The notes under the pieces are model-generated. The model was given only the letters and a program-made list of their open reading frames with translations. It did no database searches and had not been told where the DNA came from. The position numbers and the translations under genes are program-made. Below are positions 5,176-58,282 of a stretch of 64,000 nt of DNA, piece by piece. The stretch is from a virus. The DNA lies in the IMG/VR virus record IMGVR_UViG_3300027763_002499, positions 26,549-90,548 of that record; one strand, 5' to 3'. The first letter of the stretch is position 1. Each line of letters begins with the position of its first letter.

Positions 5176-5640
5176 TTATTCTTCTACCTTGTTAATTGTA
5201 ATTCCTGCTTGCTTTAAAAATACAATGCCGGCTTCACTTCTATAATTATCCCGATAAAACACCTGTTTAATACCACTTTGGTATATCAATTTAGCACATT
5301 CAATACAAGGTGCATGGGTAACAAAGATTACTGCATTTTCAGATGACTCTGGACTACGTGCTACCTTTGCAATGGCATTTGCTTCTGCATGAAGAACTTC
5401 AGGTTTGGTTACCAGTTCTCCTGTCTTGACTAGTATAGAACCAACACCATACTCGGGCTGGATTTCAGTTACTTCATCTTCACAGTTGTTGTCCCAACCA
5501 CTGGGCATTCCATTATAACCAATGCTAATGATCCTGTCATCTTTAACTACAATAGCACCCACTTGCAGTCGTCTAGCTGTGCTGAGACGGGCATAAGTAC
5601 CTGCCACTTCCATGTGTGCTTTGATGTATTTGGGTTTCAT
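5176..5640 (-). CDS. Deoxycytidylate (dCMP) deaminase
   Basis: A 154-aa zinc-dependent dCMP deaminase (ComEB / T4 Cd family). The zinc and proton-shuttle motif HAE is at 84-86 and PCIEC at 111-115 supplies C112 and C115. The N-terminal half (ARRLQVGAIVV, GYNGMPSGWDN) matches substrate-binding loops. It converts dCMP to dUMP, feeding dTMP synthesis during phage replication. The ATG lies only 6 bases after a -10 box, so the mRNA is probably leaderless at this gene. Confidence 0.92.
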   Translation of the reverse strand: MKPKYIKAHMEVAGTYARLSTARRLQVGAIVVKDDRIISIGYNGMPSGWDNNCEDEVTEIQPEYGVGSILVKTGELVTKPEVLHAEANAIAKVARSPESSENAVIFVTHAPCIECAKLIYQSGIKQVFYRDNYRSEAGIVFLKQAGITINKVEE

Positions 5641-5646
5641 ACGATA

Positions 5647-5675
5647 AGTATAACACTAGTTCTGACTAATGTCAA
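5647..5675 (-). promoter_or_regulatory. Sigma70-type promoter for the dCMP deaminase operon
   Basis: TTGACA (5675-5670), 17-bp spacer, TATACT (5652-5647). The ATG at 5640 begins 6 bases after the -10 box with no Shine-Dalgarno sequence, predicting a leaderless transcript. Confidence 0.8.
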
Positions 5676-5694
5676 CGGTAAAAGGGAATTTTGA

Positions 5695-6261
5695 ATGATT
5701 GTTTATATCCACGGCGCTAGTGCTACAGGTGAAAGTTTCAATTACATTCGCCAAAACATCAAAATTAAGGACCTTGTACTAGAATACTCGAGTTCAAGTG
5801 GTTTTGAAAACAATTTAATTAAAATGGAAAAGTCCATTGAATCATGTGACAAGATATTTTTTATTGCACATAGTTTAGGTGGAATATATGCGCTTCATTT
5901 GGCAAATCGTTTTGCAGGTGAAGTATTGGGTGGTGTTACTCTTAGTACACCATATGGCGGCTGTATTCAAGCCGATTATGCAAAATACTTCCTGCCATTT
6001 AGCAGACTCATGCGTGACATTGGCACAATGAGTCGCCCAATGAGTGATGTAGCAAAAATTCCAGCCCCTAACAATTGGACCAACATTGTCACCACTGTAG
6101 GCAAGAGTCCTTGGATACTTGAACCAAACGATGGTGTTGTTACAATTGATAGTATGCGGGCCAGGCAAGACATAGAACTAATTGAAATGTCACTAAACCA
6201 TTACGAAGTTGTGTTGAGCAATGATGTAATTAAAATAATCAAAGACCGAATAAAAAATTAA
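5695..6261 (+). CDS. Alpha/beta hydrolase (lipase/esterase-like)
   Basis: A 188-aa alpha/beta hydrolase with the N-terminal MIVYIHGASATG (oxyanion strand and loop), nucleophile elbow AHSLGG (Ser about 60), an acidic residue in EPNDGVV and a late His in SLNHYEVV, giving a complete Ser-Asp-His triad. Substrate unknown. It lies on the opposite strand to its neighbours, with RBS AGGG and a stop codon overlapping that of the converging gene (6258-6261), as expected of an inserted accessory gene. Confidence 0.8.
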   Translation: MIVYIHGASATGESFNYIRQNIKIKDLVLEYSSSSGFENNLIKMEKSIESCDKIFFIAHSLGGIYALHLANRFAGEVLGGVTLSTPYGGCIQADYAKYFLPFSRLMRDIGTMSRPMSDVAKIPAPNNWTNIVTTVGKSPWILEPNDGVVTIDSMRARQDIELIEMSLNHYEVVLSNDVIKIIKDRIKN

Positions 6262-6587
6262 ACAATCACTGACTTTTCTTTGGCATACTTGAACAGATTT
6301 GTGCCCTTCTCTCTGACCGAATCTGCTACCACTTGTGGAGAGTCTGTCCACATCTCACGCATGTCTTCGTACGTGAAATCATCTTCTGTATCATATGCCC
6401 ATACTTCAGGAAAGCGTTGGTGATTAGCCTTGGCTCGCATGATCATCATGTTAACACGTTGACCTGCATGATCTTTTGGTTTCTTACCTGACAATATTGC
6501 TAACATGTCTTCCCCTTTAAGATCATCCCAAGGAATAAGGGTGTCAACTCCCAGTGTATCAAATAACACAATCCATTGTTTAGCCAC
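6258..6587 (-). CDS. Hypothetical phage protein, GTG start
   Basis: A 109-aa protein (MAKQWIVLFD...) with several Trp and acidic residues; no motif recognised. The chosen GTG at 6587 has AAAGG 8 bases upstream; an in-frame GTG at 6596 is also possible. It overlaps the upstream gene, and its stop interlocks with the stop of the converging plus-strand hydrolase gene. Confidence 0.6.
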   Translation of the reverse strand: MAKQWIVLFDTLGVDTLIPWDDLKGEDMLAILSGKKPKDHAGQRVNMMIMRAKANHQRFPEVWAYDTEDDFTYEDMREMWTDSPQVVADSVREKGTNLFKYAKEKSVIV

Positions 6588-6774
6588 GGATTTCACCTTT
6601 TAAAATTCTAAGAGCCCTTTCTAGATTCTCTACTGTTGGTTCAACCATTCTCATGAGTGTATTTTCTGTAGACTCATCAAACACAGACAATGAAACTTTG
6701 TCATTTGACTTGTCTTGGATCAACAATAAAGCTTTGCGATCTAATTCGGTTATCTTAAAAACAGTGTAAATCAT
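6580..6774 (-). CDS. Small hypothetical phage protein
   Basis: A 64-aa acidic/charged protein (MIYTVFKITE...) with an apparent beta-alpha layout and no recognised family. Starts in an ATGA overlap with the upstream membrane protein gene. Confidence 0.6.
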   Translation of the reverse strand: MIYTVFKITELDRKALLLIQDKSNDKVSLSVFDESTENTLMRMVEPTVENLERALRILKGEIRG

Positions 6775-7085
6775 TTTAATAATACCTCATCATCTTTTAC
6801 AAGAATACCCTTTGCTCCAGGAAACCTTTTACCAAAGTTTTCATTTAATTCATCAAATGTGTTACCTTGACAAACAAATTCATTGTTTGTTGCGTTATAT
6901 GCAAATTGAATGCCATTGTGTTCTTCAATCTTGAGAAAAATAAACTTATTCCTTAAGTCTTCAATCTGTGCTTCAACTTCGTCTTGCATCTTTTTAAAAT
7001 GCCAATTTGTCCAGAATATAAATATCCTCAGCAATAGAATGGAACCTAAAAAAATCAGTAGAATGTTGTCAGTATTATTAAGCAT
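6771..7085 (-). CDS. Single-pass membrane protein
   Basis: A 104-aa protein starting MLNNTDNILL, with one hydrophobic segment at about 6-25 (ILLIFLGSILLLRIFIFW) then a charged coiled-coil-like stretch and a soluble C-terminal domain. The ATG at 7085 overlaps the end of the upstream gene and has AAGG upstream; the frame runs further to 7115, but those residues overlap the neighbour's 9-bp repeats. Probably an inner-membrane protein of unknown role. Confidence 0.6.
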   Translation of the reverse strand: MLNNTDNILLIFLGSILLLRIFIFWTNWHFKKMQDEVEAQIEDLRNKFIFLKIEEHNGIQFAYNATNNEFVCQGNTFDELNENFGKRFPGAKGILVKDDEVLLK

Positions 7086-7389
7086 CTGGTGATGCCTTAA
7101 TGTCCTTAATGTCATTAATGTCCTTAATGTTAATAACGTTATCTACTCGAAAACTCCTCCACTGTTGTTTGTCAGTACAAAAAACGCTCATGACTTCCAG
7201 CTTGGGTTCTTTCTTTTTCTTACCCTCAACAATTGCCACCTGAGGTAATAACGCAGGTTGCAAAGTACAAGGCATGGTACGCAATTCGCCATCAACCTTG
7301 GTAAAGGTAACCTCTACAATTCCTGCATTGAGTTGTTCACTAAGAACTTGCCTACGCTGTTCTATAGTTTCTTTATCAAACCAAATCAT
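7078..7389 (-). CDS. DUF2693-like SH3-type beta-barrel phage protein
   Basis: A 103-aa protein matching the phage SH3 beta-barrel (DUF2693-like) pattern: VEVTFTKVDGELRTMPCTLQP early and FCTDKQQWRSFRVDNV late. The family is common in T4-like phages and has no assigned biochemical function. The C-terminal extension (NIKDINDIKDIK) is encoded by four tandem 9-bp units and is probably a slippage product. Confidence 0.7.
   Translation of the reverse strand: MIWFDKETIEQRRQVLSEQLNAGIVEVTFTKVDGELRTMPCTLQPALLPQVAIVEGKKKKEPKLEVMSVFCTDKQQWRSFRVDNVINIKDINDIKDIKASPDA
7097..7132 (-). repeat. Four tandem 9-bp units inside a gene
   Basis: Plus strand reads ttaatgtcc, ttaatgtca, ttaatgtcc, ttaatgtta in a row. 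Each unit encodes the I-K-D / I-N-D type tripeptide of the neighbouring protein's C-terminal tail. In-frame length makes it a candidate slippage site. Confidence 0.85.
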
Positions 7390-7402
7390 TTAGTCCTCAC
7401 TA

Positions 7403-8014
7403 TTAATTAAAAACATCATTAACAAATTGTCTATTGGAGTCGATTGATTCATAGTCTTTCATTGCAGAATCTGTTACTCTAAATGCCCAGCTAGTTCCTG
7501 TTTTAGTTTTTTCAAAATAACCCGGACAATTTGCAAATCCTTTAACAGTGACCCAAGGAAGTGAATTAGCATACTTTGGGTTGGATATTAAAATTGTTCT
7601 AGCCTCTTCATATGATTTTTTAATCTGAGATTGAATACAATCATCTGTGAACTGGCAAACTTTTGCTTTAACTATAAAGCCAGGTTCACCGTTTTTAAAG
7701 TATACTCTATATTGCTGTTGAAATTTTTTGCAGACATTAGATTGCTCATATGGTGTATTACAAATTTCTTCATATGTCATAGAACCTACTGTGTGTGGAG
7801 CATCTGAATCTATGTTTCTTGTTTTAACTTCAACATCAACACCACTGATGTTAATATCGCATCCAGCACCCTTATTAACAGGATAACCATTTGAATTTAA
7901 CACTTCCTCTACATAGCATCCAATGTTGCCGTGACTGCCGTTTCCATCTGCTTGCTTTGGTACTGGCATTCCAATTAGCATTTCATCAATTTTTAATTTT
8001 TTAACAACAATCAT
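7403..8014 (-). CDS. PD-(D/E)XK nuclease-like protein
   Basis: A 203-aa protein. The N-terminal third has the restriction-endonuclease-fold layout: an early helix with E36/E37 (GCYVEEVLNSNGY), then D53 in GAGCDI and an E62-x-K64 pair in DVEVKTRN. That D-x(8)-ExK spacing after a glutamate-bearing helix fits the PD-(D/E)XK core of MutH/Sau3AI-like enzymes. The rest is unassigned. Target (host DNA, branched DNA, own DNA) unknown. ATGA overlap with the upstream gene, RBS AAAGGA. Confidence 0.6.
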   Translation of the reverse strand: MIVVKKLKIDEMLIGMPVPKQADGNGSHGNIGCYVEEVLNSNGYPVNKGAGCDINISGVDVEVKTRNIDSDAPHTVGSMTYEEICNTPYEQSNVCKKFQQQYRVYFKNGEPGFIVKAKVCQFTDDCIQSQIKKSYEEARTILISNPKYANSLPWVTVKGFANCPGYFEKTKTGTSWAFRVTDSAMKDYESIDSNRQFVNDVFN

Positions 8015-8334
8015 TTCTGTTCCTTTACAATGTTATATAGTACGTCAAATTCCTTCTTGGCTTCTGCAAGGTTTGGATATTGCTTACAAAGCTCTTTGAT
8101 AGCTTCTTCCTCTGCCCTCATCTTTTCAAACCAAACAATCATCTCTCTTAGCTTAGGTCCAACATTGATGTTAGCACTACCCTGTGGAATTGTTTGTGCG
8201 CTTCCATTAGCATCAACAACTTTATATTGTCTGCTGTTTGCGTCCCAATAAAGAGCACCACTAGCATATGGACCATTGTTAAAGGTTGATACTTCTAAGA
8301 TGCCTGGATCAATACTATTGATATAATCTATCAT
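8011..8334 (-). CDS. Hypothetical phage protein, leaderless start
   Basis: A 107-aa protein: an N-terminal Gly/Asn/Tyr-rich beta segment (GALYWDANSRQYKVVD), then a charged helical C-terminal half (about 60-105). No family recognised. The ATG lies 5 bases after a TATAAT box with no Shine-Dalgarno sequence, so translation probably begins at the 5' end of the mRNA. Confidence 0.65.
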   Translation of the reverse strand: MIDYINSIDPGILEVSTFNNGPYASGALYWDANSRQYKVVDANGSAQTIPQGSANINVGPKLREMIVWFEKMRAEEEAIKELCKQYPNLAEAKKEFDVLYNIVKEQK

Positions 8335-8339
8335 AATCT

Positions 8340-8368
8340 ATTATACACTACTTTGTTTAGATTTTCAA
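8340..8368 (-). promoter_or_regulatory. Sigma70-type promoter, leaderless
   Basis: TTGAAA (8368-8363), 17-bp spacer, TATAAT (8345-8340); ATG at 8334 begins 5 bases after the -10 box. The -35 lies inside the end of the upstream gene. Confidence 0.75.
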
Positions 8369-8917
8369 GTGTTTGAAATACTCAAAATGCTTTTCAAGTG
8401 TCCATGTTTCAGGATTAACCAGTGTACCATCATGAGTTTGGTAACTTGCCGAAAACACATTTGAGTAACGCTTGAATGGCAACCACATGTCTGGGGTATG
8501 GCTAGCCCAACCTGCATCCTTTAGAGCCATGTGTTTGGCACGACTCAACTTCACAGTTGGTACATTAAGAGCTTGTTCAACTGTAATAATACTTGCTAAC
8601 AACAAGTCACGAATACGGGCCGCCGGAATTAAATGCTCAAAGTCAGTTTCATTGTCTGCACCAATCTCAACATAGTGAGCATCCATACCATCGCGTTCTT
8701 CGATACAGTACTTGTGGTACCTACGCAAATAGTAATCAATGTCGTTGCGAATTTCACGCAACAATTGTTGATTATTCTTAACCATGAGGTATTCGTTAAC
8801 TAAACGCTCAATATGTTTGGTGCAATGTTCTGCTACTGTTTTATAGGTAGCAGGACTACGTTTTGTCTTGCCGTAAACTGGAGCCGTAAAGTTTTCAAGA
8901 GATTCTTTTAAGTTCAT
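8357..8917 (-). CDS. Conserved phage protein of unknown function
   Basis: A 186-aa protein with a charged helical first half (KHIERLVNEY, DIDYYLRRYHKYC) and a central FEHLIPAARIRDLLL segment that resembles the E-H-x-I-P part of some HNH-like phage proteins, but no complete HNH motif is present. C-terminal Trp/Tyr/His-rich. Starts with a strong RBS (GGAGGGG) in an ATGA overlap with the ParB-like gene. Function unknown. Confidence 0.6.
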   Translation of the reverse strand: MNLKESLENFTAPVYGKTKRSPATYKTVAEHCTKHIERLVNEYLMVKNNQQLLREIRNDIDYYLRRYHKYCIEERDGMDAHYVEIGADNETDFEHLIPAARIRDLLLASIITVEQALNVPTVKLSRAKHMALKDAGWASHTPDMWLPFKRYSNVFSASYQTHDGTLVNPETWTLEKHFEYFKHLKI

Positions 8918-10035: not shown

Positions 10036-10043
10036 TTATTATT

Positions 10044-12273: not shown

Positions 12274-12507
12274 TTAACAGTAAAAATCTTCGCCACGATC
12301 GTAAGCACCAATCGCTTCGTAAACCACTTCACGAACCGCGGTGTCCATTGCTTCGCCAAACTTTTCGTAATCTGAGTCAGCCAAGTCACGCAGGTTTTGT
12401 TGAACCAAGGCCCAGGGGCTTTTGCGATGTGCATGGTATTCGATAATACCTTAATGGCTTGGATTACCAGCTTCGCTAAACATACCAAAACTTTGAACAA
12501 CTTGCAT
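12274..12507 (-). pseudogene. Small phage gene interrupted by an in-frame TAA
   Basis: From the ATG at 12507 (RBS AAGGAG) the frame reads MQVVQSFGMFSEAGNPSH, then TAA at 12453-12451, then continues in the same frame for 58 more codons (GIIEYHAHRK...YDRGEDFYC) with a normal protein-like composition. Removing one C after the AAT codon and adding one G to the following GG run would replace NPSH-stop with NQAIKG and leave one 77-codon gene. This points to two compensating single-base changes, a real nonsense lesion, or a sequencing error. Neighbours are intact. Function unknown. Confidence 0.7.
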
Positions 12508-12537
12508 GCCCGACTCCTTTTTACTGAACATGTATGT

Positions 12538-12566
12538 ATTATACGGTATTTTGAATAACCCGTCAA
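12538..12566 (-). promoter_or_regulatory. Sigma70-type promoter
   Basis: TTGACG (12566-12561), 17-bp spacer, TATAAT (12543-12538). An ATG 6 bases after the -10 is in frame with the interrupted gene. The -35 overlaps the hairpin at 12554-12580. Confidence 0.85.
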
Positions 12567-12591: not shown

Positions 12592-12906
12592 TTAAACAAC
12601 GTATGAAGTGCCAGTAATCACATTGTAAACACGGGTACCAGCACCAAATTCTGCACGGGCTTCGAGCTTTTCTTCATCGCTTGGACCACGATAGTTGGCA
12701 CGATAATTTTCCAAAAACTTACGAGTTTCTTGTGCTCGGGCTTCGTTGCTGTTAGCAACAACCAAACTATCAACCAAACCTGCTTTTTGGAATTCTTCTA
12801 ACATGTCGTTAAAAGGAACTTGATCATTGCTGTTCCAACGCACTACTGGACCTGTAGCATCATTAGTTTCGTCAATGTAAAATTTGTCTGCGTATTTGTG
12901 GCTCAT
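12592..12906 (-). CDS. Hypothetical phage protein
   Basis: A 104-aa protein beginning MSHKYADKFY, with a helical middle rich in Glu/Ala/Arg and a C-terminal GTRVYNVITGTSY. No family recognised. The ATG at 12906 has AAGGAG 6 bases upstream; an in-frame ATG 8 codons earlier sits 7 bases after the -10 box, so a leaderless longer form is possible. It is a single-gene transcription unit. Confidence 0.65.
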   Translation of the reverse strand: MSHKYADKFYIDETNDATGPVVRWNSNDQVPFNDMLEEFQKAGLVDSLVVANSNEARAQETRKFLENYRANYRGPSDEEKLEARAEFGAGTRVYNVITGTSYVV

Positions 12907-12937
12907 CTTTTGCTCCTTATTACCTAACATACTTTGT

Positions 12938-12966
12938 ATTATAGATAGATCTGGACCAAGAGTCAA
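12938..12966 (-). promoter_or_regulatory. Sigma70-type promoter
   Basis: TTGACT (12966-12961), 17-bp spacer, TATAAT (12943-12938). Confidence 0.85.
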
Positions 12967-13748: not shown

Positions 13749-13949
13749 TCAATTATAACTGTTATAGTCTGGAAAGTCAAAGAATTTTTCTAGAAAATGG
13801 CCAATGTTGCCATAAATTATAGCTTCTAGATATTCTTGGTCCTCTGTACTTAGGTTCACATCATTTTCAATGGCTTCGTGCATTTGCAGTAGCCAATGAT
13901 TAATCATGTCCATGTGTACACTAGATTTTTCAAGCTTTTTCTTGATCAT
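13749..13949 (-). CDS. Small helical protein, leaderless start
   Basis: A 66-aa acidic helical protein (MIKKKLEKSS...). The ATG at 13949 begins 6 bases after a perfect TATAAT with no Shine-Dalgarno site, so the longer frame to 14012 would start upstream of the transcript and was rejected. First gene of the operon continuing to 13039. Function unknown. Confidence 0.65.
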   Translation of the reverse strand: MIKKKLEKSSVHMDMINHWLLQMHEAIENDVNLSTEDQEYLEAIIYGNIGHFLEKFFDFPDYNSYN

Positions 13950-13955: not shown

Positions 13956-13984
13956 ATTATAATGTATAATGAAGCAATTGTCAA
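13956..13984 (-). promoter_or_regulatory. Consensus sigma70 promoter, leaderless
   Basis: TTGACA (13984-13979), 17-bp spacer, TATAAT (13961-13956): a perfect consensus match in both boxes and spacing. The ATG at 13949 starts 6 bases after the -10. Confidence 0.9.
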
Positions 13985-14023
13985 ATTTTTTTTGATAAGT
14001 AAACTTATACAACCTTTCAAGTT

Positions 14024-14581
14024 ATGATTGCATTAAACGCATACCCTGCACTATTACTCAACGCCGATTTTCAACCGGTCCATATGCATCCATTAAGTAC
14101 TATAAATTGGCAAGACGCTATTAAATCAGTCTTTTCTGATCGAGTGAATGTAGTTGCAGAATACGATGTTGAAATTCATAGTGCTACGCAAAGTTGGCGC
14201 TTGCCCAGTGTTGTGGCTCTCAAAGACTATGTCAAAAGAGACCAAACTCCTACATTCAGCAGATACAATGTTTATCTACGTGACCAGTTTACTTGCCAAT
14301 ATTGTGGAGGAGAGTTTGAAGCTCGTCATTTGACATTTGACCATGTTATCCCAAGAGCACATGGTGGTATAAGTTCATGGCAAAACGTTGTTGCGGCTTG
14401 CAGTCCTTGCAATCACAAAAAAGGATCAAAGTTGCCAAATGAAGCCAAGATGTTCCCGATCAACAAACCTGTACCTCCTACTGCATGGGACTTGTACGCT
14501 AGGGGAAAACGTAGGCCTCAAAGTAATCTACACGAATCTTGGAGAGATTATCTATATTGGGATAGTGCTTTAGAAGCATAA
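14024..14581 (+). CDS. HNH endonuclease
   Basis: A 185-aa HNH nuclease. C91/C94 and C126/C129 form the structural zinc site, D106-H107 (FDHVIPRAHGG) starts the betabeta-alpha-Me motif and N130-H131 with NHKKGSK completes it. The first 80 residues match the N-terminal extension of bacterial and phage HNH proteins of the RRXRR/McrA-like group. It could be a free-standing homing-type or packaging-associated nuclease. It is one of only two plus-strand genes and has no clear Shine-Dalgarno site. Confidence 0.88.
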   Translation: MIALNAYPALLLNADFQPVHMHPLSTINWQDAIKSVFSDRVNVVAEYDVEIHSATQSWRLPSVVALKDYVKRDQTPTFSRYNVYLRDQFTCQYCGGEFEARHLTFDHVIPRAHGGISSWQNVVAACSPCNHKKGSKLPNEAKMFPINKPVPPTAWDLYARGKRRPQSNLHESWRDYLYWDSALEA

Positions 14582-18895: not shown

Positions 18896-19327
18896 TTATT
18901 CCTTTATTAAAGGAATTTTTTTAGGTTGTAGTTGGTCTGGAATTTGTTGTTCCAAATCAATGACTAACATACCGTCTTTGAGACTTGCTGTTTTTACTTC
19001 AACATGGTCAGCTAATACAAATTCTTGTTTAAAATTTCGTTTAGCAATACCACGGTAAACAAAAGTAGTATCAGCAGATTCCTCTTCTGATTTCTTACCT
19101 TCTACAACAAGGATATTTTCTTGTTGAGTAACATCAATATCAGCTTCACTAAAGCCTGCGACGGCCATAGTGATGCGAGTAGCAGTGTCACTGATCTTCT
19201 CAACATTGATTGGTGGGTAAGTACTTTTACCTTGGGGGCTTGTAGCCATTAAGCGTTCGAGTTCATTAAAAATGTTATCGAAGCCGATACCAAAGTGGTG
19301 TGATGGGAATAGTCGCAGATTTGACAT
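18896..19327 (-). CDS. Small heat-shock protein (Hsp20 / IbpA family)
   Basis: A 143-aa protein with an IbpA-like N-terminus (FDNIFNELERLM, PPINVEKISD) and an alpha-crystallin domain: ITMAVAGFSEADIDV, ENILVVEGKK, YRGIAKRNFKQEFVLADHVEV and LKDGMLVIDLEQ. The C-terminal IxI-type anchor is KIPLIKE. It holds unfolding proteins for refolding. A promoter and a long leader with a strong hairpin precede it; RBS AAAGGAG. Confidence 0.93.
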   Translation of the reverse strand: MSNLRLFPSHHFGIGFDNIFNELERLMATSPQGKSTYPPINVEKISDTATRITMAVAGFSEADIDVTQQENILVVEGKKSEEESADTTFVYRGIAKRNFKQEFVLADHVEVKTASLKDGMLVIDLEQQIPDQLQPKKIPLIKE

Positions 19328-19385
19328 GATATAGTCTCCTTTATTAAGCGAGTTTTAATTTGACAACCCCTCTTGGGCCTTGTCT

Positions 19386-19419
19386 TGTAATGCTAACCCT
19401 CATGGCATTAGCATTACAA
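19386..19419 (-). promoter_or_regulatory. Strong hairpin in the hsp20 leader
   Basis: TTGTAATGCTA / TAGCATTACAA, 11-bp perfect stem with a 12-base loop, beginning right at the expected transcription start and about 60 bases before the hsp20 ATG. It does not cover the RBS, so it is more likely a 5' stabilising or attenuation hairpin than a simple thermometer. Confidence 0.6.
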
Positions 19420-19450: not shown

Positions 19451-19726
19451 TTAAAATAACCTTTTTCTTGTACCTTCTCTTGCTGGTCTGCGTCCTTCAA
19501 GTTCATCTTTTTCAACCTGACGCAACCAGCGTCTACGGGCTTGATTTTCATCTTTTAATCTACGCACACATGGTTTTACATACTCCATGCGTTCGCGGAC
19601 TTCTTCTAATAGGCCGCTTTCCTGAATTTTGTTCTTAAATTTTCTTAGAGCTTTGTCAACATTGCCATCCTTGACTTCTACTCTTGCTCCACCCTTTCTT
19701 GTGGAACTTGGCTTGTCTCTACTCAT
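19451..19726 (-). CDS. rpsU: Ribosomal protein bS21
   Basis: A 91-aa bS21 homologue: [19 protein letters not shown] is the conserved N-terminal core, followed by [17 protein letters not shown] and a long Arg/Lys-rich C-terminal tail. Bacterial bS21 is about 70 aa and helps the 30S subunit pair with Shine-Dalgarno sequences. Phage-encoded bS21 is known from aquatic phages and may replace host bS21 to favour phage mRNAs. The N-terminal 14 residues and Arg-rich tail are extensions. ATGA overlap with clpX. Confidence 0.88.
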
Positions 19727-23788: not shown

Positions 23789-24307
23789 TCAGGCCTTTGA
23801 CAATAAAATATCATCTAAGACTTCACCTGGGTTACTGTATCCATAATCAACCTGGGTGTAGGTTATATTATGCTTCGCCAGTAACGCCGCAATCCGTCGA
23901 TCGACCTCAATGCTTGCATCAAGGTTATGCACACGGCCGCGATCATCGAACCACGGGCCGCGCCCTAGAAATGCCACGTGATTATCGTAACGCTTCCAGA
24001 GTTCTACTACTACCCGCTCCCACTCTGCAGGATAATCTGCTGGAGCATAGATAGCACTCAATAATACCGGGCTGTCGGTTATTACATAATCAACTTGTCC
24101 CGCAAGCCTGTGTATTCTTTGTACTTGACGACCGAATACATAAGCTTGATTTTCCAGCGCACAATGCCTGCCTTCCCAAACTAGGTCTTTAGCAACTTCC
24201 GTTACTAATTCTACATTCCACCCACGGCGTTTTGCTTCATGATACAAGCCTGACGCTAAGGTGCTTTTACCTGCTCCTGGGCCAGCAATAACATTGATAA
24301 CTTTCAT
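23789..24307 (-). CDS. P-loop NTPase, NadR/AAA_28-like
   Basis: A 172-aa kinase-fold protein: Walker A AGPGAGKST (8-16), VELVTEVAKDLVWEGR and a Walker B-like YVITDSPVLLS. The pattern matches the AAA_28/NadR-kinase-like proteins common in phages; a nucleotide or nicotinamide-riboside kinase role is possible. Its GC content looks higher than its neighbours', hinting at separate acquisition. ATG lies 6 bases after a -10 box (leaderless). Confidence 0.75.
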   Translation of the reverse strand: MKVINVIAGPGAGKSTLASGLYHEAKRRGWNVELVTEVAKDLVWEGRHCALENQAYVFGRQVQRIHRLAGQVDYVITDSPVLLSAIYAPADYPAEWERVVVELWKRYDNHVAFLGRGPWFDDRGRVHNLDASIEVDRRIAALLAKHNITYTQVDYGYSNPGEVLDDILLSKA

Positions 24308-24313: not shown

Positions 24314-24342
24314 ATTGTAGCAAAATACTTATTGAAAGTCAA
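24314..24342 (-). promoter_or_regulatory. Sigma70-type promoter, leaderless
   Basis: TTGACT (24342-24337), 17-bp spacer, TACAAT (24319-24314); the ATG at 24307 begins 6 bases after the -10. Likely drives the operon down to bS21 (19451). Confidence 0.8.
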
Positions 24343-24346
24343 AGAA

Positions 24347-24369
24347 ATAGGGCACTCAATGTGCCCTAT
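24347..24369 (-). terminator. Rho-independent terminator
   Basis: ATAGGGCAC / GTGCCCTAT, 9-bp perfect stem with a 5-base loop, followed on the minus strand by TTCTTT. It ends the 25933-24427 unit just before the next promoter. Confidence 0.85.
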
Positions 24370-24426
24370 CTAGCGGTGCCGTATTTGGCGATTCTTAATT
24401 TTTTAAAAATTAATTTGCCATTAACA

Positions 24427-26828: not shown

Positions 26829-28286
26829 TCAATATACTGGTATATTATGTAGATTTTGAAATTTCAGTGCATCATCCCAGGTGTTTACCAAGGGCTCACC
26901 TTTGATGTTAAGGCTTGTATTCATTAATACAGGACAACCGCTTTTTCTGTTCCACTCTTCCAATAATGTTCTAAAAGTTATATTGTCATCTTTTGATACA
27001 GTTTGCACCCTACTTGTTCCATCTACATGACAAACTCCAGGCAGTTCACCGCTGGTACACTTTGCTACAAACTGCATATAAGGACTAGAGGACACAGGCA
27101 TGTCAAAGTATGCACCAGCATGTTCTTTTAGTACTGCTGGTGCAAATGGTCTAAACTGTTCTCGCTTTTTAATAGCGTTCATTCTAGACTTGGCTTTGGG
27201 TCCACGCGGGTCACATAGTAGACTACGATTGCCTAACGCTCTTGGTCCAAACTCTGCTCTGCCATTTGCTACTGCTACTACTTCTCCTGCCTGTAGACGT
27301 TTGACCACAGCATCAATGTCAAGTTCACGTTCAATATCTGTGCCAAGATAAGGATGCTTCCATGTCAAGTGCTCTTTGGTATGTACGGCAACTGCTCCAA
27401 TAGCACTACCAGCATCACCAGGGTTAGGCATGATCCAAATGTTGTCAAAGACTTGACTGCGAGCAAGCCTAGCATTGGCAACACAATTTAATGCCACTCC
27501 CCCCATGAACACAAGATTTTTGCTCTTGATATTCATGCTCATACCAATTACAGTTTCTATCAGGTAATCTTCAACTATGCTCTGAACACATGCGGCAATA
27601 TCAAACTTATTGGTGTTTAATGGTGCAGTCCACCAACGACATCCGCGATGTAAGTTATGTCTTAGTTTAAAATCTGGTGCTTCAATATATTCAAAGAATT
27701 CATTCTTAATATGGTTTTTAAGAACTAGGTCAACAGAACCATATGCTGCCATGCCCATAAGAATGTATTCTTCTTCGTTGGGCTTTAGGCCAACATAATC
27801 AGTAAATGCTGTGTAAAACAATCCAATGCTATTGGGATAACGCTGTCGCCATTTACACTTTAATTTATTTGCCTGACCTTCCCAGATGCTAACAGTATCC
27901 CATTCACCAATGGCATCAACTACAAGTACTGCGGCATCACTGTATCCGCTTGTGTAGTATCCAGCTGCCGCATGACTATGATGGTGTCCAACAACCTCCA
28001 TTGGCAAATTATCCAACCCAACAAGTTTGAGTTGATCTTGAGGATTTACAATCCAAGGTCTTTGTCCCGAGTAAAGTCTACGCAAATTCTTAGACCAAGG
28101 CTTTTCAAACCATACAATTTGAGTTGGTTCGCCGTACTCACGCATTTCACGCACCATGTTAACATCTAACATAGTATCGTTTTTCTTTCTGCTATAGCGT
28201 TCGCTGTGCCCTGCCCAGAGTATTTTATCTCCATCAATCAGTGCCATACTGGCATCATGATTCTGGGCAGTGATACCCAGAATCAT
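26829..28286 (-). CDS. O-carbamoyltransferase (NodU/CmcH/TobZ family)
   Basis: A 485-aa two-domain carbamoyltransferase. The N-terminal Kae1-like domain shows MILGITAQNHDAS, HHHSHAAAGYY (metal-binding His), VVDAIGEWDT and MGGVALNCVAN; the C-terminal YrdC-like domain has FGPRALGNRSLL, FRPFAPAVL, CHVDGTSRVQTV and VLMNTSLNIKGEP. The family uses carbamoyl phosphate and ATP to carbamoylate hydroxyls of sugars or antibiotics. Slightly shorter than the usual 530-570 aa. It abuts the fused radical SAM gene with no gap, suggesting a tailoring role on the cluster's product. Confidence 0.92.
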   Translation of the reverse strand: MILGITAQNHDASMALIDGDKILWAGHSERYSRKKNDTMLDVNMVREMREYGEPTQIVWFEKPWSKNLRRLYSGQRPWIVNPQDQLKLVGLDNLPMEVVGHHHSHAAAGYYTSGYSDAAVLVVDAIGEWDTVSIWEGQANKLKCKWRQRYPNSIGLFYTAFTDYVGLKPNEEEYILMGMAAYGSVDLVLKNHIKNEFFEYIEAPDFKLRHNLHRGCRWWTAPLNTNKFDIAACVQSIVEDYLIETVIGMSMNIKSKNLVFMGGVALNCVANARLARSQVFDNIWIMPNPGDAGSAIGAVAVHTKEHLTWKHPYLGTDIERELDIDAVVKRLQAGEVVAVANGRAEFGPRALGNRSLLCDPRGPKAKSRMNAIKKREQFRPFAPAVLKEHAGAYFDMPVSSSPYMQFVAKCTSGELPGVCHVDGTSRVQTVSKDDNITFRTLLEEWNRKSGCPVLMNTSLNIKGEPLVNTWDDALKFQNLHNIPVY

Positions 28287-54094: not shown

Positions 54095-54111
54095 GCAAGG
54101 CCCAAAGTCTA

Positions 54112-54402
54112 TTAAGCGGCTTTGGAAACAGGGCCAGTCTTAATAAGATCAGCCACTTTGCGCTTTGTGCGCTTGGCCAGCTCTTCGGCGATAGCAACGC
54201 CAGCATGACCAGAGATGTTCTTGGCATGCAAGAACTCCAGTGCTTCAACCTTTGAAGCAGGTTTTGCCAACTCATAAAGTTGGATGTCGGTATGACCGGT
54301 CTTGACCAAGGTCTTGATGCGAGTCATGTCAGTTGCGAAACGGGCCTTTGTTTTGCCATCTTTAGTTGAATAGCCAGCCACTGTAAAAAGTTTATCAGAC
54401 AT
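54112..54402 (-). CDS. Conserved phage protein
   Basis: A 96-aa protein with KLFTVAGYSTKDGKTKARFATDM and GHTDIQLYELAKPASKVEALEFL, a pattern common in phage accessory genes, and a basic C-terminal helix. Function unknown. The 5' leader of about 70 bases contains an AGCAAG/CTTGCT hairpin and a 14-codon mini-frame whose ATG is 6 bases after the -10 box. Confidence 0.7.
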   Translation of the reverse strand: MSDKLFTVAGYSTKDGKTKARFATDMTRIKTLVKTGHTDIQLYELAKPASKVEALEFLHAKNISGHAGVAIAEELAKRTKRKVADLIKTGPVSKAA

Positions 54403-54479
54403 ATTATCTCCTGTGAGTGTGTCTTAGTTTAGCAAGAAATCCGCTTGCTGTCGGTTATGAGCATCGTGCCCATAATCTT

Positions 54480-54508
54480 ATTATACCACCAAGTGTTCGA
54501 AAGGTCAA
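54480..54508 (-). promoter_or_regulatory. Sigma70-type promoter
   Basis: TTGACC (54508-54503), 17-bp spacer, TATAAT (54485-54480), upstream of the gene at 54402. Confidence 0.85.
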
Positions 54509-54533
54509 CCACTTTTTGGCAAAATATCTCAAA

Positions 54534-54956: not shown

Positions 54957-54988
54957 TTGTCAGTTCCTTTTTGTTTAACAATACGTGT

Positions 54989-55017
54989 ATTATACTGGAT
55001 TCTGCCCGTTTGGTCAA
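54989..55017 (-). promoter_or_regulatory. Sigma70-type promoter
   Basis: TTGACC (55017-55012), 17-bp spacer, TATAAT (54994-54989), before the LPD29-like gene. Confidence 0.85.
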
Positions 55018-55023
55018 CCGAAA

Positions 55024-55278
55024 TCAGTCACCAATTGCTCTTACAAGTTGTTGTGTTTTTGCAACAACATTTTCAATTTCTATCAAGCTTGCTTGACCAT
55101 GGCCCAATAATGCTTCAGATTCTGTAGCATATCTACGGACCACATCACTGTCGCCATTGGGATAAAATACACAGGTCTCGTATTTCATTGTTCCATAGTG
55201 CATGTCGTGCAGATTAACGGTACTGATCATCAATTTACCGACTTCGGTAACTGCTACAGTTTCAGGTGTCTTAAACAT
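55024..55278 (-). CDS. Conserved small phage protein
   Basis: An 84-aa protein with STVNLHDMHYGTMKYETCVF and TESEALLGH, a pattern recurring in phage small genes of unknown role. Overlaps the upstream gene by 8 bases. Confidence 0.68.
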   Translation of the reverse strand: MFKTPETVAVTEVGKLMISTVNLHDMHYGTMKYETCVFYPNGDSDVVRRYATESEALLGHGQASLIEIENVVAKTQQLVRAIGD

Positions 55279-55474
55279 TTACAAACTCCATTCTAGGATG
55301 ATATTCAATTCGGTAGCCTTGACTAGCAGGATATAACCCAAACAATTCGGCGCATTCGCGTTTCATGCTTGCTTCATCCCTATCACGCCAAACTGTGATA
55401 CTAACCGTACGCTCGCCAGTTTTTACACGACGGTCTGCTTTGTAGATGAACAAGGTATAGTCTTGACGCATCAT
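55271..55474 (-). CDS. Conserved small phage protein
   Basis: A 67-aa protein (MMRQDYTLFI...) with KADRRVKTGERTVSITVWRD and GYRIEYHPR. Similar proteins occur widely in phages. Start fixed by the AAGGAG site and the ATGA overlap with the upstream gene; the frame extends further up to 55567 inside that gene. Confidence 0.7.
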   Translation of the reverse strand: MMRQDYTLFIYKADRRVKTGERTVSITVWRDRDEASMKRECAELFGLYPASQGYRIEYHPRMEFVNV

Positions 55475-55845
55475 GCAATCTCCTTGCGAAAATAACCATA
55501 GGGCAAGCCCTGGGTAAAACAAAAATACTCCGAGTCGCCGTTGGCGCCTTCTGCGTCCATGAGCCACGCAATCACACGCTCACGGTTGGTACCAGTGTGC
55601 ATTAGATTTGCAACACGGTTTTCAAAATCAACAACGGCCTGGGCTTCGGCGGCCTTACGAGCAATATCTTCACGCTCGATAATTTCTTCCAACTGCCTGA
55701 ACTCGGCTAGGTAGTCTGCTTCGGTCCAACTAGAAGTATCAATACCGCGGGGGCGAATGCCAAACGCATCTTTGTACATGTCCCAATAGATACAGGCATA
55801 CTGCTCAAGGGTTGTCATCTCTTCCCAGCTTTTGAAGTCTTCCAT
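55471..55845 (-). CDS. Conserved phage protein
   Basis: A 124-aa protein with DMYKDAFGIRPRGIDTSSWT, a Glu/Arg-rich helix and YFCFTQGLPYGYF, a widely shared phage protein of unknown role. The ATG at 55845 follows AAGGAG; another in-frame ATG 8 codons upstream is 6 bases after the -10 box, so both a leaderless and an SD-led start are possible. Confidence 0.75.
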   Translation of the reverse strand: MEDFKSWEEMTTLEQYACIYWDMYKDAFGIRPRGIDTSSWTEADYLAEFRQLEEIIEREDIARKAAEAQAVVDFENRVANLMHTGTNRERVIAWLMDAEGANGDSEYFCFTQGLPYGYFRKEIA

Positions 55846-55875
55846 TTTGAACTCCTTTTTACTTAACATGTATCT

Positions 55876-55904
55876 ATTATAGCCGATTTAGCCCTTTTGG
55901 TCAA
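55876..55904 (-). promoter_or_regulatory. Sigma70-type promoter
   Basis: TTGACC (55904-55899), 17-bp spacer, TATAAT (55881-55876). Confidence 0.85.
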
Positions 55905-55963
55905 CCATTTTTTGGTGTTTTTTAGACTTTTTTGAGCCTATTTTTGTTGTTTTTTAGCAACAC

Positions 55964-55988
55964 ATTCTGCTTAAAAATTAAGCAGAAT
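55964..55988 (-). terminator. Terminator hairpin
   Basis: ATTCTGCTTAA / TTAAGCAGAAT, 11-bp perfect stem with a 3-base loop, directly after the stop of the gene at 55994; A/T-rich sequence follows before the next promoter. Confidence 0.7.
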
Positions 55989-55993
55989 TTCAC

Positions 55994-56353
55994 CTAATAT
56001 GTTACGCCAGGGCCGGCTACAAAGGACGGTATAATTGGAGTAGGATCAACGACCTCGCCGTAACGACGCACTTGTCTCTGTTCATATTCTGTAAGAAAGT
56101 CGTTACTGACCAATTCCCAGTCTGAAATACATTCTCCATATCGTTTGGGATTTGCTTGTATTGTTTTATTATTCAATACAATTTTAGGTCTTAACTGGTA
56201 CAAAATAAAATCTAACATTTTCCAGTCTTTTCGAAAATGTTTTTTATATGTTTCAGCGTCTGGAATGTAAAAGTATTCATTATGACGCTTACCAAAACCA
56301 TAATCACCGTCAAGGTAGGTAACATAAAACCATGTTACGACACGAAGTTTCAT
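55994..56353 (-). CDS. Hypothetical phage protein
   Basis: A 119-aa protein (MKLRVVTWFY...) with a Tyr-rich first half (YGFGKRHNEYFYIPDAETY) and a basic second half. No family recognised. Single-gene unit with promoter, 30-base leader and terminator. Confidence 0.65.
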   Translation of the reverse strand: MKLRVVTWFYVTYLDGDYGFGKRHNEYFYIPDAETYKKHFRKDWKMLDFILYQLRPKIVLNNKTIQANPKRYGECISDWELVSNDFLTEYEQRQVRRYGEVVDPTPIIPSFVAGPGVTY

Positions 56354-56383
56354 TTTTAATCCTTGTTTAGTCTCAATACAAGT

Positions 56384-56412
56384 ATTGTAGCAGTTTGGAA
56401 ATTTTTAGTCAA
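56384..56412 (-). promoter_or_regulatory. Sigma70-type promoter
   Basis: TTGACT (56412-56407), 17-bp spacer, TACAAT (56389-56384). The -35 overlaps the stop of the upstream membrane protein gene. Confidence 0.78.
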
Positions 56413-56642
56413 CCAAAGGCAGATATTAACCCTACAATTCCAATGGCTATTGACACAATGTTAACTGCCATTTGTGGCCGATTACCTGCACGAATAGCCC
56501 AGATTAAAAACGCTAGAGTCCCTACGGCAAAGACCACAATATTATAAGGATACATTGTAGGACCAATAGCATTCAATGAGTGCCCTGCAATAATTAAAAC
56601 AGCTCCGGCCCATTGTAGCACTTCATCAAAGTCAATTTTCAT
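56409..56642 (-). CDS. Small membrane protein (DUF6552-like)
   Basis: A 77-aa protein with three hydrophobic helices: VLQWAGAVLIIAGHSLNAIG, NIVVFAVGTLAFLIWAI and NIVSIAIGIVGLISAF. The layout resembles the small phage membrane family DUF6552. Function unknown. ATGA overlap upstream. Confidence 0.7.
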   Translation of the reverse strand: MKIDFDEVLQWAGAVLIIAGHSLNAIGPTMYPYNIVVFAVGTLAFLIWAIRAGNRPQMAVNIVSIAIGIVGLISAFG

Positions 56643-56848
56643 TGTGATAAGGTGTCCACAATTCGTTGCTCGATCAGATCCATTTCTGCCTGCTCCAAGT
56701 AAAAGTCTGTGGTTGGGTCATAGTACTGACCTTCTCGAACATCGTAATACAACACACGACCATTGAAGTTGAATGGACCTTCCAAGCCCGCACGTGGACC
56801 ATACTTTTCACGCATACGGTCTACGGAATTCAAAACTCGATAACCCAT
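56639..56848 (-). CDS. Conserved phage protein (GPRAGLEGPF family)
   Basis: A 69-aa protein with GPRAGLEGPFNFNGRVLYYD and YYDPTTDFYLEQAEMD, strongly patterned like a conserved phage small protein of unknown role. RBS AAGG. Confidence 0.72.
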   Translation of the reverse strand: MGYRVLNSVDRMREKYGPRAGLEGPFNFNGRVLYYDVREGQYYDPTTDFYLEQAEMDLIEQRIVDTLSQ

Positions 56849-56856
56849 GTCAATCC

Positions 56857-57024
56857 TTAAGAAAAGAACTCTGCGGCTTCAGCCATAAACACACGATAGG
56901 CTTCCAAGGTCTTTTGTGTTTGGGCCAGGGGATGGTCTTTGACAAATTGTATAAAGTCCAAAAAGTTCATACCCAAAAAGTCTGCGTCTTTTTGCAAAAC
57001 TGAAATAGCTGTAGAGATTTTCAT
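56857..57024 (-). CDS. Small helical protein
   Basis: A 55-aa gene (MKISTAISVL...) predicted helical with several Phe near the middle and end. RBS AAGGAAC precedes the ATG. Unknown function; part of the unit starting at 57261. Confidence 0.65.
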   Translation of the reverse strand: MKISTAISVLQKDADFLGMNFLDFIQFVKDHPLAQTQKTLEAYRVFMAEAAEFFS

Positions 57025-57036
57025 AATTTGTTCCTT

Positions 57037-57261
57037 TTAACCACGAATTTCAAAGGCAAAATCAGTGCCTGTCCTAGTGACATAAATCTTACGACCATGC
57101 ACCGTAATGTAACCCCACTCGCCATCTTGGTAAATGTCATGTGGATCTTTTTCAAGTGTGACATTACGCACAATTTCACAAAAACCATTGCGCCATGTAG
57201 GCAGTTTTTGCTTAAAGTACCGGTCGTTATCACGTTGTACAATAAAGATTTTTGCTTTCAT
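57037..57261 (-). CDS. Small hypothetical protein, leaderless start
   Basis: A 74-aa strand-rich basic protein (MKAKIFIVQR...). The ATG begins 6 bases after TATAAT with no Shine-Dalgarno site, so the mRNA appears leaderless. First gene of a unit down to 56409. Confidence 0.68.
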   Translation of the reverse strand: MKAKIFIVQRDNDRYFKQKLPTWRNGFCEIVRNVTLEKDPHDIYQDGEWGYITVHGRKIYVTRTGTDFAFEIRG

Positions 57262-57267
57262 GTATTG

Positions 57268-57296
57268 ATTATACTGGTTCTACCCCAAATGGTCAA
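57268..57296 (-). promoter_or_regulatory. Sigma70-type promoter, leaderless
   Basis: TTGACC (57296-57291), 17-bp spacer, TATAAT (57273-57268); ATG at 57261. Confidence 0.85.
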
Positions 57297-57309
57297 CCAT
57301 TTAAAGAAA

Positions 57310-57332
57310 AACCCTACACAAGGTAGGGTTTG
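57310..57332 (-). terminator. Terminator hairpin (CCCTAC/GTAGGG type)
   Basis: AAACCCTAC / GTAGGGTTT with a 5-base loop, then TTCTTT on the minus strand. Same stem as the terminator at 12978-13004; a GTTG/CAAC hairpin precedes it. Confidence 0.82.
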
Positions 57333-57355
57333 TTGTATTTTTGCAACAAATCTGC

Positions 57356-57643
57356 TTATTTTTTAGGCAAATCCCTTGCTAATTGGTACCAGTCTGTGGC
57401 TTTTTTGTAGTTAAAATTTGGGTGCCTATACATATAATCTCGTTTGCGCTCTGCTATCTCTAGTGCATCTAACAAACGCATTTTGTCATTAAACGGAAGC
57501 GACATTAAGATACTGTTCATATCTGTAATGTCTAACATGTACTCTACCCACTTTTCCGTGGCTTTTATTTTGTGAAAGCTGGACTGCCCTTTATTATTGT
57601 TATTAGTAGCAGTGTATTTTTGAATAAAATTAATTGCTCGCAT
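57356..57643 (-). CDS. Hypothetical phage protein
   Basis: A 95-aa protein (MRAINFIQKY...), helical and basic, with NSILMSLPFNDKMRLLDALEIAERK. No family recognised. Strong RBS (AAGGAAGG), own promoter and terminator. Confidence 0.65.
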   Translation of the reverse strand: MRAINFIQKYTATNNNNKGQSSFHKIKATEKWVEYMLDITDMNSILMSLPFNDKMRLLDALEIAERKRDYMYRHPNFNYKKATDWYQLARDLPKK

Positions 57644-57672
57644 ACTAATCCTTCCTTGGTGGTTGAATTAGT

Positions 57673-57701
57673 ATTATACTACAAAACAAACCATTTGTCA
57701 A
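57673..57701 (-). promoter_or_regulatory. Consensus sigma70 promoter
   Basis: TTGACA (57701-57696), 17-bp spacer, TATAAT (57678-57673): perfect in boxes and spacing. Confidence 0.9.
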
Positions 57702-57703
57702 GT

Positions 57704-57979
57704 CTACTTGCTTAGACGTTCTAGGGCCAGAATTTCACTCAGTGACTTGGCCATGTCCTCATCGGGTGTGACAATGTGCAAGGATACTCGACTGATATCT
57801 TTGCGATTGTCATATGATGATACTCGAATAATAGTTCCACCTGCCGCAGGGATTACTTTGAAGTTGATTGAATCATCTGAGTCAACATCAATGTCCTCAT
57901 TTACATAAACGCTACCACTGACGGTTTCCTTGTCGTGGGTAAACAACCAATTACGAAGTTTTTCTTTGAACCAACTCAT
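57704..57979 (-). CDS. Conserved phage protein (MSWFKEK family)
   Basis: A 91-aa protein opening MSWFKEKLRNWLF and containing VIPAAGGTIIRVSSYD and SLHIVTPDED, similar to a small phage protein that starts MSWF. The frame continues upstream to 58126, but that part overlaps the next gene by 110 bases and is compositionally different, so the start at 57979 was chosen. Confidence 0.7.
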   Translation of the reverse strand: MSWFKEKLRNWLFTHDKETVSGSVYVNEDIDVDSDDSINFKVIPAAGGTIIRVSSYDNRKDISRVSLHIVTPDEDMAKSLSEILALERLSK

Positions 57980-58016
57980 GTGCATTTTCTTTCTTAAACC
58001 AATTGTTTCATTGTCA

Positions 58017-58244
58017 TCATAACGATTGAGTCGTTGACTCATTGGCTTGGGTTGTAGACCGGGTCTCGTCCTCGGCCCAAACCGTCCATTCGCCATACTC
58101 TTTTTTGAAGCATAACCACCGCTCATAATCTATCCTTACATCTACCGGGTAAAATTCTAGGCTCTCACCAATGACTGCTAACAAACCGGGATTCATGCCG
58201 CGTGAAGCATGGTACAGGTTTGGAAATTCTAATTTATATGACAT
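58017..58244 (-). CDS. Hypothetical phage protein, near-leaderless start
   Basis: A 75-aa protein (MSYKLEFPNL...) with FYPVDVRIDYERWLCFKKEYGEWTVWAED. No family recognised. The ATG is 8 bases after a TATAAT with no Shine-Dalgarno site. Confidence 0.62.
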   Translation of the reverse strand: MSYKLEFPNLYHASRGMNPGLLAVIGESLEFYPVDVRIDYERWLCFKKEYGEWTVWAEDETRSTTQANESTTQSL

Positions 58245-58252
58245 TGTCAACA

Positions 58253-58282
58253 ATTATAGTTTATATGCAATAACATTGTCAA
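58253..58282 (-). promoter_or_regulatory. Sigma70-type promoter
   Basis: TTGACA (58282-58277), 18-bp spacer, TATAAT (58258-58253). The only candidate here with an 18-bp spacer. Confidence 0.75.

Follow-up and report, generated by a model that had tools for sequence, protein, structure and literature searches.

Introduction

The Thermus phage phiYS40 is reported to make a whole set of its mRNAs leaderless (PMC3594737). Here we analysed a stretch of phage DNA in which something similar is predicted, a window of 64,000 nucleotides (nt) that covers positions 26,549-90,548 of the 90,548-base IMG/VR virus record IMGVR_UViG_3300027763_002499. In this window, a set of genes starts with an ATG 5-8 nt after the -10 box of a sigma-70 promoter and has no Shine-Dalgarno (SD) site. 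phiYS40 differs from this phage in that its Thermus host belongs to a leaderless-rich group, its leaderless mRNAs come from middle and late genes, and host IF2 goes up while IF3 goes down (PMC3594737). The phage described here has plain -35/-10 sigma-70 promoters, and its putative leaderless genes, many of them replication and nucleotide genes, are mixed with SD-led ones. Phage leaderless programmes are thus already known, and the present case is a variant with sigma-70 promoters.

Leaderless mRNAs that arise from a -10 box very close to the start codon are likewise described for the -10-adjacent open reading frames (ORFs) of Deinococcus-Thermus (PMC12340547) and for the 'TA-led' genes of Zheng 2011 (PMC3160421). 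Those genes belong to cellular genomes, whereas the phage promoters have a strong -35 box (TTGACN) and an almost constant spacing of 6 nt. Lambda cI is also a phage gene with the AUG at the 5' end of its mRNA (PMC4965119, PMC9031893), but it is a single repressor gene and the 90-kb record described here has nine leaderless candidates. Phage transcripts are called 'often leaderless' in the paper on phage AR9 (PMC5312081). In the open-access literature, searched with limited terms and among top-ranked results, we found no description of a leaderless class in T4-like jumbo phages.

Promoter spacing and SD sites

The gap is counted here from the last base of the -10 box to the ATG. An earlier note on this DNA had named six genes, starting at 5640, 8334, 13949, 24307, 57261 and 58244, as having a sigma-70 promoter with a close ATG and no SD site, and four further sites discussed below. 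All ten sites read on the minus strand, which is the coding strand. In the six genes the promoters and the gaps (5, 6 or 8 nt, Table 1) were as described, and none has GGAG, GAGG, AGGA or AAGG before the ATG, the motifs by which SD sites were checked. Their promoters closely match TTGACA-17/18-TATAAT, and a consensus scan ranks the noted promoters, which agree with the consensus at 10 to 12 of 12 positions, among its top-scoring sites. The mechanically listed ORF of the 13949 gene extends to an upstream TTG at 14012. Three further leaderless candidates lie beyond the window, at window coordinates -201, -24643 and -26205.

Strong promoters were defined by a score of at least 12.5 bits. Over the full record, 15 of the 28 strong coding-strand promoters have an ATG at gaps 5-8 (p 3.7e-9) and nine have it at gap 6 (p 1.2e-8), where the background is the ATG rate of 0.021-0.024 per position. 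Across the record, the frequency of close ATGs therefore exceeds chance. The opposite strand has a single promoter of this strength, without an ATG at gaps 5-8.

We pooled this record with seven relatives that were fetched whole. The 163 promoters of these eight genomes have 6, 50, 4 and 5 ATGs at gaps 5, 6, 7 and 8, against a background expectation of about 2.7 per position, and only 0-3 at every gap in 0-4 and 9-18. Genome by genome, the p value for gap 6 ranges from 3e-10 to 0.004 across all eight. Start codon use is strict: the 50 ATGs at gap 6 are accompanied by no GTG, TTG or CTG. A second mode of 55 ATGs at gaps 29-33 is SD-led. In E. coli, transcription preferentially starts some 7 nt past the -10 box, so that a gap of 6 would place the A of the ATG at +1.

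When a leaderless gene is defined as a frame of at least 40 amino acids (aa) without an SD-led start, the 163 promoters comprise 44 leaderless genes, 7 dual starts, 4 with a mini-frame and an SD-led gene, 10 with an ATG and a short frame, 59 that are SD-led only and 39 with neither. With both strands counted, leaderless genes follow 44 of 171 promoters. In two larger relatives, an ATG stands at gap 6 in 12/58 promoters (G016, 285 kb) and in 4/29 promoters (G017, 244 kb). Since 52 of the 85 ORFs of at least 100 aa in this record match G016, the record probably represents part of a jumbo-sized genome.

AT-rich DNA often puts ATGs near -10-like sequences, and weak promoter-like sites are indeed plentiful here (73 in 20 kb, compared with 54.5 in shuffles). 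Nevertheless, with p about 4e-9 in this record alone, and with the exact 6-nt gap kept in all 61 scorable GIY-YIG loci despite 33 different upstream sequences, the probability that chance produced the pattern is negligible. We rejected chance for the leaderless class on its enrichment in the record and in the eight genomes; it may account for single non-conserved cases such as 58244. T4-type late promoters (TATAAATA) were also considered as a second leaderless set and were rejected, since their coding-strand sites (4 in G016, 5 in G017 and 1 in this record) gave no signal.

To place the class outside the clade we used two samples of environmental phage loci from virome pattern scans (gap-6 and gap-12), which are samples and not rates; the control rates come from the other promoters within the sampled loci. 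The gap-12 sample uses 118 loci, with two stretches omitted whose ids are common to the gap-6 sample. Leaderless genes follow 27/276 and 14/230 promoters (41/506 together), and an excess at gap 6 is seen too (25/276 and 9/230). This means that the architecture is not unique to the clade, where it is about three times as frequent. The statement that leaderless mRNAs are rare in proteobacteria fits the survey table of Zheng 2011 (PMC3160421), but it has to be set beside these environmental phages, which show the class as well (41/506 compared with 44/171).

Conservation of the leaderless architecture

Over five families in the eight genomes, the gap is exactly 6 in 31 of 32 orthologues. It is 6 for the kinase at 24307 in 8/8 genomes, for the GIY-YIG nuclease in 6/6 and the peptide deformylase in 5/5 genomes that carry the gene, and for the 13949 family in 5/5 genomes with an orthologue, this record included. 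The dCMP deaminase at 5640 has gap 6 in seven genomes and gap 10 in the eighth. In the kinase, TTGACN-17-TAYAAT-6-ATG is kept in 16/16 close relatives; by eye, no such promoter was seen in 12 more distant homologues. Among the listed matches to dCMP deaminases of other phages, a promoter of at least 11 bits within 45 nt was found in 0/80 loci and an SD site in 11/80.

The GIY-YIG gene was followed further in viral contigs. All 61 scorable loci, with 33 distinct upstream sequences and protein identity down to 50%, have gap 6 and no SD site; a 62nd locus is truncated and was left unscored, and some of the loci come from contigs of the eight genomes. In locus L455 the best promoter only equals the threshold of 11.0, and another TATAAT sits nearer the ATG. 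By eye, the spacer between -35 and -10 in the GIY-YIG promoters (L002 1905, L400-L461) often has a TGGNCCA- or GGGCC-like core, possibly an operator.

Conservation thus strongly backs the leaderless status proposed for 5640, 13949 and 24307, and backs 8334 in part (3/7 genomes). It does not extend to the remaining two of the six: 57261 has no orthologue in the other seven genomes, which is also the case for -26205, and the architecture of 58244 is found in 0/3 other orthologues, so that both rest on their own sequence. Taken as a set, the leaderless genes appear to be an old and maintained trait of the phage clade.

Several points weigh against this reading. Apart from 58244, the architecture is lost or patchy in other families: the 8334 family is leaderless in only three of seven genomes, this record included, the CTTC family in 4/8, and the J-domain gene in 2/8, with a promoter at gap 9 in a third. 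The candidate at -201 is leaderless in 0/1 other orthologue, and so are a 180-aa gene of G010 (0/4), a 75-aa gene of G014 (0/7) and a 69-aa gene of G005 (0/1). The eight genomes share kinship, and their pooled counts are not independent events. The promoter matrix is E. coli-like and hand-written, with weights and spacer penalties that were not fitted to the window. Moreover, 14 of the 65 promoters with an ATG at gaps 5-8 precede only short frames, some of them in the leader of the hsp20 gene. Finally, ATA is also enriched at gap 6 (29/163, background 3.4), because many SD-led leaders open with CATAG or a related sequence and carry an AAGGAG-type SD after it. Start codons therefore do not account for the whole preference of the promoters for A-T-purine at +1 to +3.

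Predicted starts of translation and transcription

The start codon of the kinase (MKVINVIAGPGAGKST) is fixed by its Walker A motif, which starts at residue 9 and would be destroyed by a later start. Independent support for a start codon comes from the 5'-3' exonuclease of G016, where the Pfam match runs from profile position 2. A longer leader made by read-through seems less likely, since 42 of the 43 leaderless promoters are not inside a same-strand ORF of at least 100 aa, and a terminator-like hairpin is found within 70 nt upstream of the -35 box in 7/43 of them, compared with 16/480 random windows. In addition, the genes at 5640 and 13949 are each divergently oriented to a plus-strand ORF (5695-6261 and 14024-14581, respectively). 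The hairpin before the kinase promoter is also present in G003, G010 and G012; none was scored in G001, G005 and G008.

We propose that host sigma-70 promoters (TTGACN-17-TATAAT) are positioned so that the favoured start would be the A of the ATG. The mRNAs made by host RNA polymerase would then start on the AUG itself or no more than about 2 nt away from it. These SD-less mRNAs would be translated by the leaderless route, with a 70S ribosome and initiator tRNA on the 5'-terminal AUG. A second promoter set, with its -10 box mostly 29-33 nt before an SD-led ATG, would allow the translation mode to be set per gene. A 5'-terminal AUG is reported to suffice for recruiting 70S ribosomes (PMC4965119; PMC9031893). 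In Lactococcus, ribosome profiling is reported to give leader-length modes of <5 nt and about 40 nt (PMC10986495), which look similar to the two modes of the phage promoters.

The enrichment, the exact conserved spacing (31/32 and 61/61), the strict use of ATG and the lack of SD sites all support the proposal in the earlier note that leaderless starts form a translation class. We give a probability of about 0.86 to the reading that host sigma-70 polymerase makes truly leaderless mRNAs, many of them for nucleotide and DNA-replication genes. From the sequence we infer the actual transcription start, the leaderless translation and any advantage it might have, such as initiation independent of SD pairing.

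Dual starts and the mini-frame

At three genes the note had described an additional in-frame ATG close to the -10 box, upstream of an SD-led start, and this was confirmed. The upstream ATG at 12531, 12930 and 55869 is in each case 24 nt in frame upstream of the SD-led ATG, and wherever it is kept in orthologues it has this same distance and frame. At 12507 it is an ATG in this record and in G001 and an ATA in G016 and G010 (kept in 2/4). The frame from 12507 is only 18 aa long here, ended by an in-frame TAA at 12451-12453 (codon 19), while the G001 orthologue is open for 77 aa. At 55845 it is kept in 3/4, namely this record, G008 (gap 7) and G005 (gap 6), and is ATA in G016. A dual gene of G008 at 87284 keeps it in 1/2 orthologues, and the gene at 12906 has no orthologue in the other nine genomes. 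We regard the dual class as possible but unproven.

The dual leaders look alike and may derive from a single copied cassette. Similar 5'-leader cassettes of nearly constant leader length, of the CATAG...AAGGAG type or with ATGTTNAGTAAAAAGGAG, stand before different SD-led genes, for example at 11753-11720, 12566-12507 and 55904-55845.

The fourth site is a 14-codon mini-frame that starts at 54473 with gap 6, upstream of the SD-led gene starting at 54402, as the note had described. The ATG at +1 is at gap 6 in all five genomes that keep the promoter, this record included, and the mini-peptide varies between 14 and 25 codons. An ATG that is kept while the peptide changes fits an effect of a 5'-terminal AUG on the downstream gene. 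The layout of these four leaders is that of E. coli SD-led mRNAs with an upstream 5'-terminal AUG of the ptrB type, which are reported to bind ribosomes and in which this AUG can influence the gene that follows (Beck, Fleming and Janssen 2016, PMC4965119). In the phage, the upstream AUG of the dual cassettes is kept in 6 of 10 promoter-keeping orthologues.

These data raise the question whether the +1 ATG is mainly a signal for transcription start or for ribosome docking, where a 5'-terminal AUG would load 70S ribosomes, and a gene start only secondarily. The mini-frame and the majority of the dual cassettes would fit this, and so would the ATA that is likewise enriched at +1. However, in 44 of the 65 promoters with an ATG at gaps 5-8 this ATG opens a frame of at least 40 aa and no SD-led start competes with it, five families conserve it as the start of the gene, and in 4/10 dual-cassette orthologues it has become ATA or is lost. 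We therefore consider it unlikely that signalling is its main role, and read the +1 ATG as the start of leaderless genes.

Functions of the two gene sets

The putative leaderless set includes the dCMP deaminase, the thymidylate-kinase-like kinase, peptide deformylase, the GIY-YIG nuclease and a 5'-3' exonuclease, as well as an SbcD-like nuclease, a dNMP kinase, a second exonuclease, an HD phosphohydrolase, a DNA helicase and a primase. SD-led first genes encode a T4-like late sigma factor (in G016 and G017), DNA ligase, endonucleases, an endolysin-like protein and many unknowns. In G016 and G017, the best hit falls in the PHROG category DNA, RNA and nucleotide metabolism for 6 of 10 leaderless and 3 of 20 SD-led proteins (Fisher p 0.018). 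The proteins of this test were hand-picked (leaderless of at least 164 aa, SD-led of at least 139 aa), the score for the leaderless list was laxer (11.5) than that for the SD list (12.5), and the already annotated dCMP deaminase and peptide deformylases were omitted. For one of the leaderless picks (G016 42973) an SD-led start is available as well, two picks are of the same exonuclease family, and two of the 20 SD-led genes have a mini-frame. The bias of the leaderless class toward replication and nucleotide genes is suggestive only.

The peptide deformylase family is present in 6/10 records, and its gene has the leaderless layout at G005 73686, G008 25204, G010 29133, G012 57181 and G014 44720.

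bS21 and the host

The phage encodes its own bS21, and the earlier note had suggested that this protein alters the balance between leaderless and SD-led starts. A bS21 is found in 14/15 relatives. G016 has no match, but the order of its matches suggests that its contig ends flank the bS21 region, so that the missing match is uninformative. According to a published proposal, ribosomes with phage bS21 would select phage transcripts late in infection (PMC9723584), and by entering host ribosomes the protein could in principle shift them toward leaderless or away from SD-led initiation. The published proposal applies to the late phase, however, and many leaderless genes of this phage serve replication or nucleotide metabolism. 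SD-led promoters exceed leaderless ones in the same genomes (59 compared with 44), co-occurrence inside one clade is uninformative, and only 2 of 11 further records, whose completeness is uncertain, have a bS21 match. We found no support for the suggestion past co-occurrence and regard such a shift as very unlikely. No IF3-like gene (PF00707) was found in 10 records.

Alternatively, the phage may simply copy its host, if leaderless genes are frequent in that bacterium and the trait is ordinary there. Actinobacteria and Deinococcus-Thermus are reported to be rich in leaderless genes (Zheng 2011, PMC3160421), and the excess at gap 6 in other environmental phage loci would agree with this. The SD-led genes of the phage, in contrast, carry a clear AAGGAG-type motif. 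The S21 family matches 6/14 control genomes (E. coli, B. subtilis, Caulobacter, Synechococcus, Bacteroides and Lactococcus) and has no match in those of Corynebacterium, Thermus and Deinobacterium. Together with the bS21 of 14/15 relatives, this distribution makes an actinobacterial or a Thermus host less likely; it has no such bearing on a Lactococcus-like host. A trait taken over from the host is possible, if on the unlikely side, and leaderless genes maintained by the phage clade remain our preferred reading.

Searches for the host gave little. The 689-aa radical SAM protein had no tblastn match in the phage collection. The kinase had no close cultured relative (best 44.6%) and no match among genome contigs. 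A 712-aa protein matched 13 records, all below 60%, with no close cultured relative. bS21 itself matches solved structures from many groups and gives no host indication.

Other features of the window

Directly downstream of bS21 lies an hsp20-like gene (18896-19327). This resembles the bS21 phages of Chen et al. 2022, where Hsp20 is near bS21 in n = 127 among 900 published bS21 phages (PMC9723584). The clades presented in that paper are predicted to infect Bacteroidetes, and the part of it considered here does not describe a leaderless class (PMC9723584).

The leader of the hsp20-like gene (19322-19418, minus strand) is a candidate for a ROSE-like RNA thermometer. Its ROSE_3 (RF02523) score of 22.4 bits is below the cut-off of 43 bits, and Rfam at the gathering threshold gave 0 matches. 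A record-wide ROSE_3 search matched 4/9 records at E <= 1, including the hsp20 leaders of G008 (28.9 bits), G014 (19.5 bits) and G012 (13.3 bits), and did not report the leader of this record. Matches below the cut-off also occur in 6/14 control genomes, and the ROSE_3 scores alone are weak. The leader is alignable in 8/8 genomes, with an invariant ACTCGCT that faces the SD and double-sided changes in 10 of 20 consensus pairs; this alignment appears to be stronger evidence for a thermometer than the scores.

Elsewhere in the window, 7/8 tested proteins of a gene run at 28287-48856 match radical SAM PHROGs. The run adjoins a Nol-like carbamoyltransferase gene (26829-28286) and is perhaps a biosynthetic or modification cluster.

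Table 1. Predicted features of the window, with positions counted from its first base; the gap is the distance from the -10 box to the ATG.
Feature	Position	Strand	Basis or remark
Leaderless gene, dCMP deaminase, starts MKPKYIKAHM	5176-5640	-	PHROG dCMP deaminase E 1.7e-51; Pfam PF00383
Promoter TTGACA-17-TATACT, gap 6	5647-5675	-	Sequence reading and consensus scan
Leaderless gene, 107 aa, function not assigned, gap 5	8011-8334	-	
Promoter TTGAAA-17-TATAAT	8340-8368	-	Sequence reading and consensus scan
'Dual' cassette: promoter, ATG 12531 (gap 6), SD, ATG 12507	12507-12566	-	
'Dual' cassette: promoter, ATG 12930 (gap 7), SD, ATG 12906	12906-12966	-	
Leaderless gene, 66 aa, function not assigned, gap 6	13749-13949	-	
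Promoter TTGACA-17-TATAAT	13956-13984	-	Sequence reading and consensus scan
Phage bS21	19451-19726	-	PF01165 E 1.6e-14
Leaderless gene, P-loop (thymidylate-kinase-like / AAA_28) kinase, gap 6	23789-24307	-	PHROG and Pfam matches
Promoter TTGACT-17-TACAAT of kinase	24314-24342	-	Sequence reading and consensus scan
Terminator-like hairpin (11 pairs), directly upstream of kinase promoter	24345-24371	-	Ranked first in its 20-kb region
5'-terminal 14-codon mini-frame	54429-54473	-	Upstream of SD-led gene 54112-54402
Promoter TTGACC-17-TATAAT of mini-frame/54402 transcript	54480-54508	-	Consensus scan
'Dual' cassette: promoter, ATG 55869 (gap 6), SD, ATG 55845	55845-55904	-	
Leaderless gene, 74 aa, function not assigned, gap 6	57037-57261	-	
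Promoter TTGACC-17-TATAAT	57268-57296	-	Sequence reading and consensus scan
Terminator-like hairpin upstream of 57261 promoter	57309-57331	-	Hairpin scan
Candidate leaderless gene, 75 aa, gap 8	58017-58244	-	
Promoter TTGACA-18-TATAAT	58253-58282	-	Sequence reading and consensus scan

Discussion

A broader idea would be that a lineage of T4-like giant phages encodes two translation classes of its sigma-70 genes by the distance between promoter and ATG, with leaders of 0 nt and about 25 nt. The leaderless class would then serve to keep the translation of replication and nucleotide genes going if SD-dependent initiation falls or changes during infection, possibly by the action of ribosomes that carry the phage's own bS21. 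We consider this idea improbable, and offer it as a speculation.

Leaderless translation is usually met in single genes, such as lambda cI, or in certain bacterial phyla. A phage clade in which dozens of sequences share the exact distance between -10 box and ATG, beside SD-led genes, is a natural system for asking what leaderless initiation serves. Gene callers that rely on SD sites may misplace starts in such phages. The clade may also show whether viruses use leaderless initiation to escape the control of SD-led initiation.

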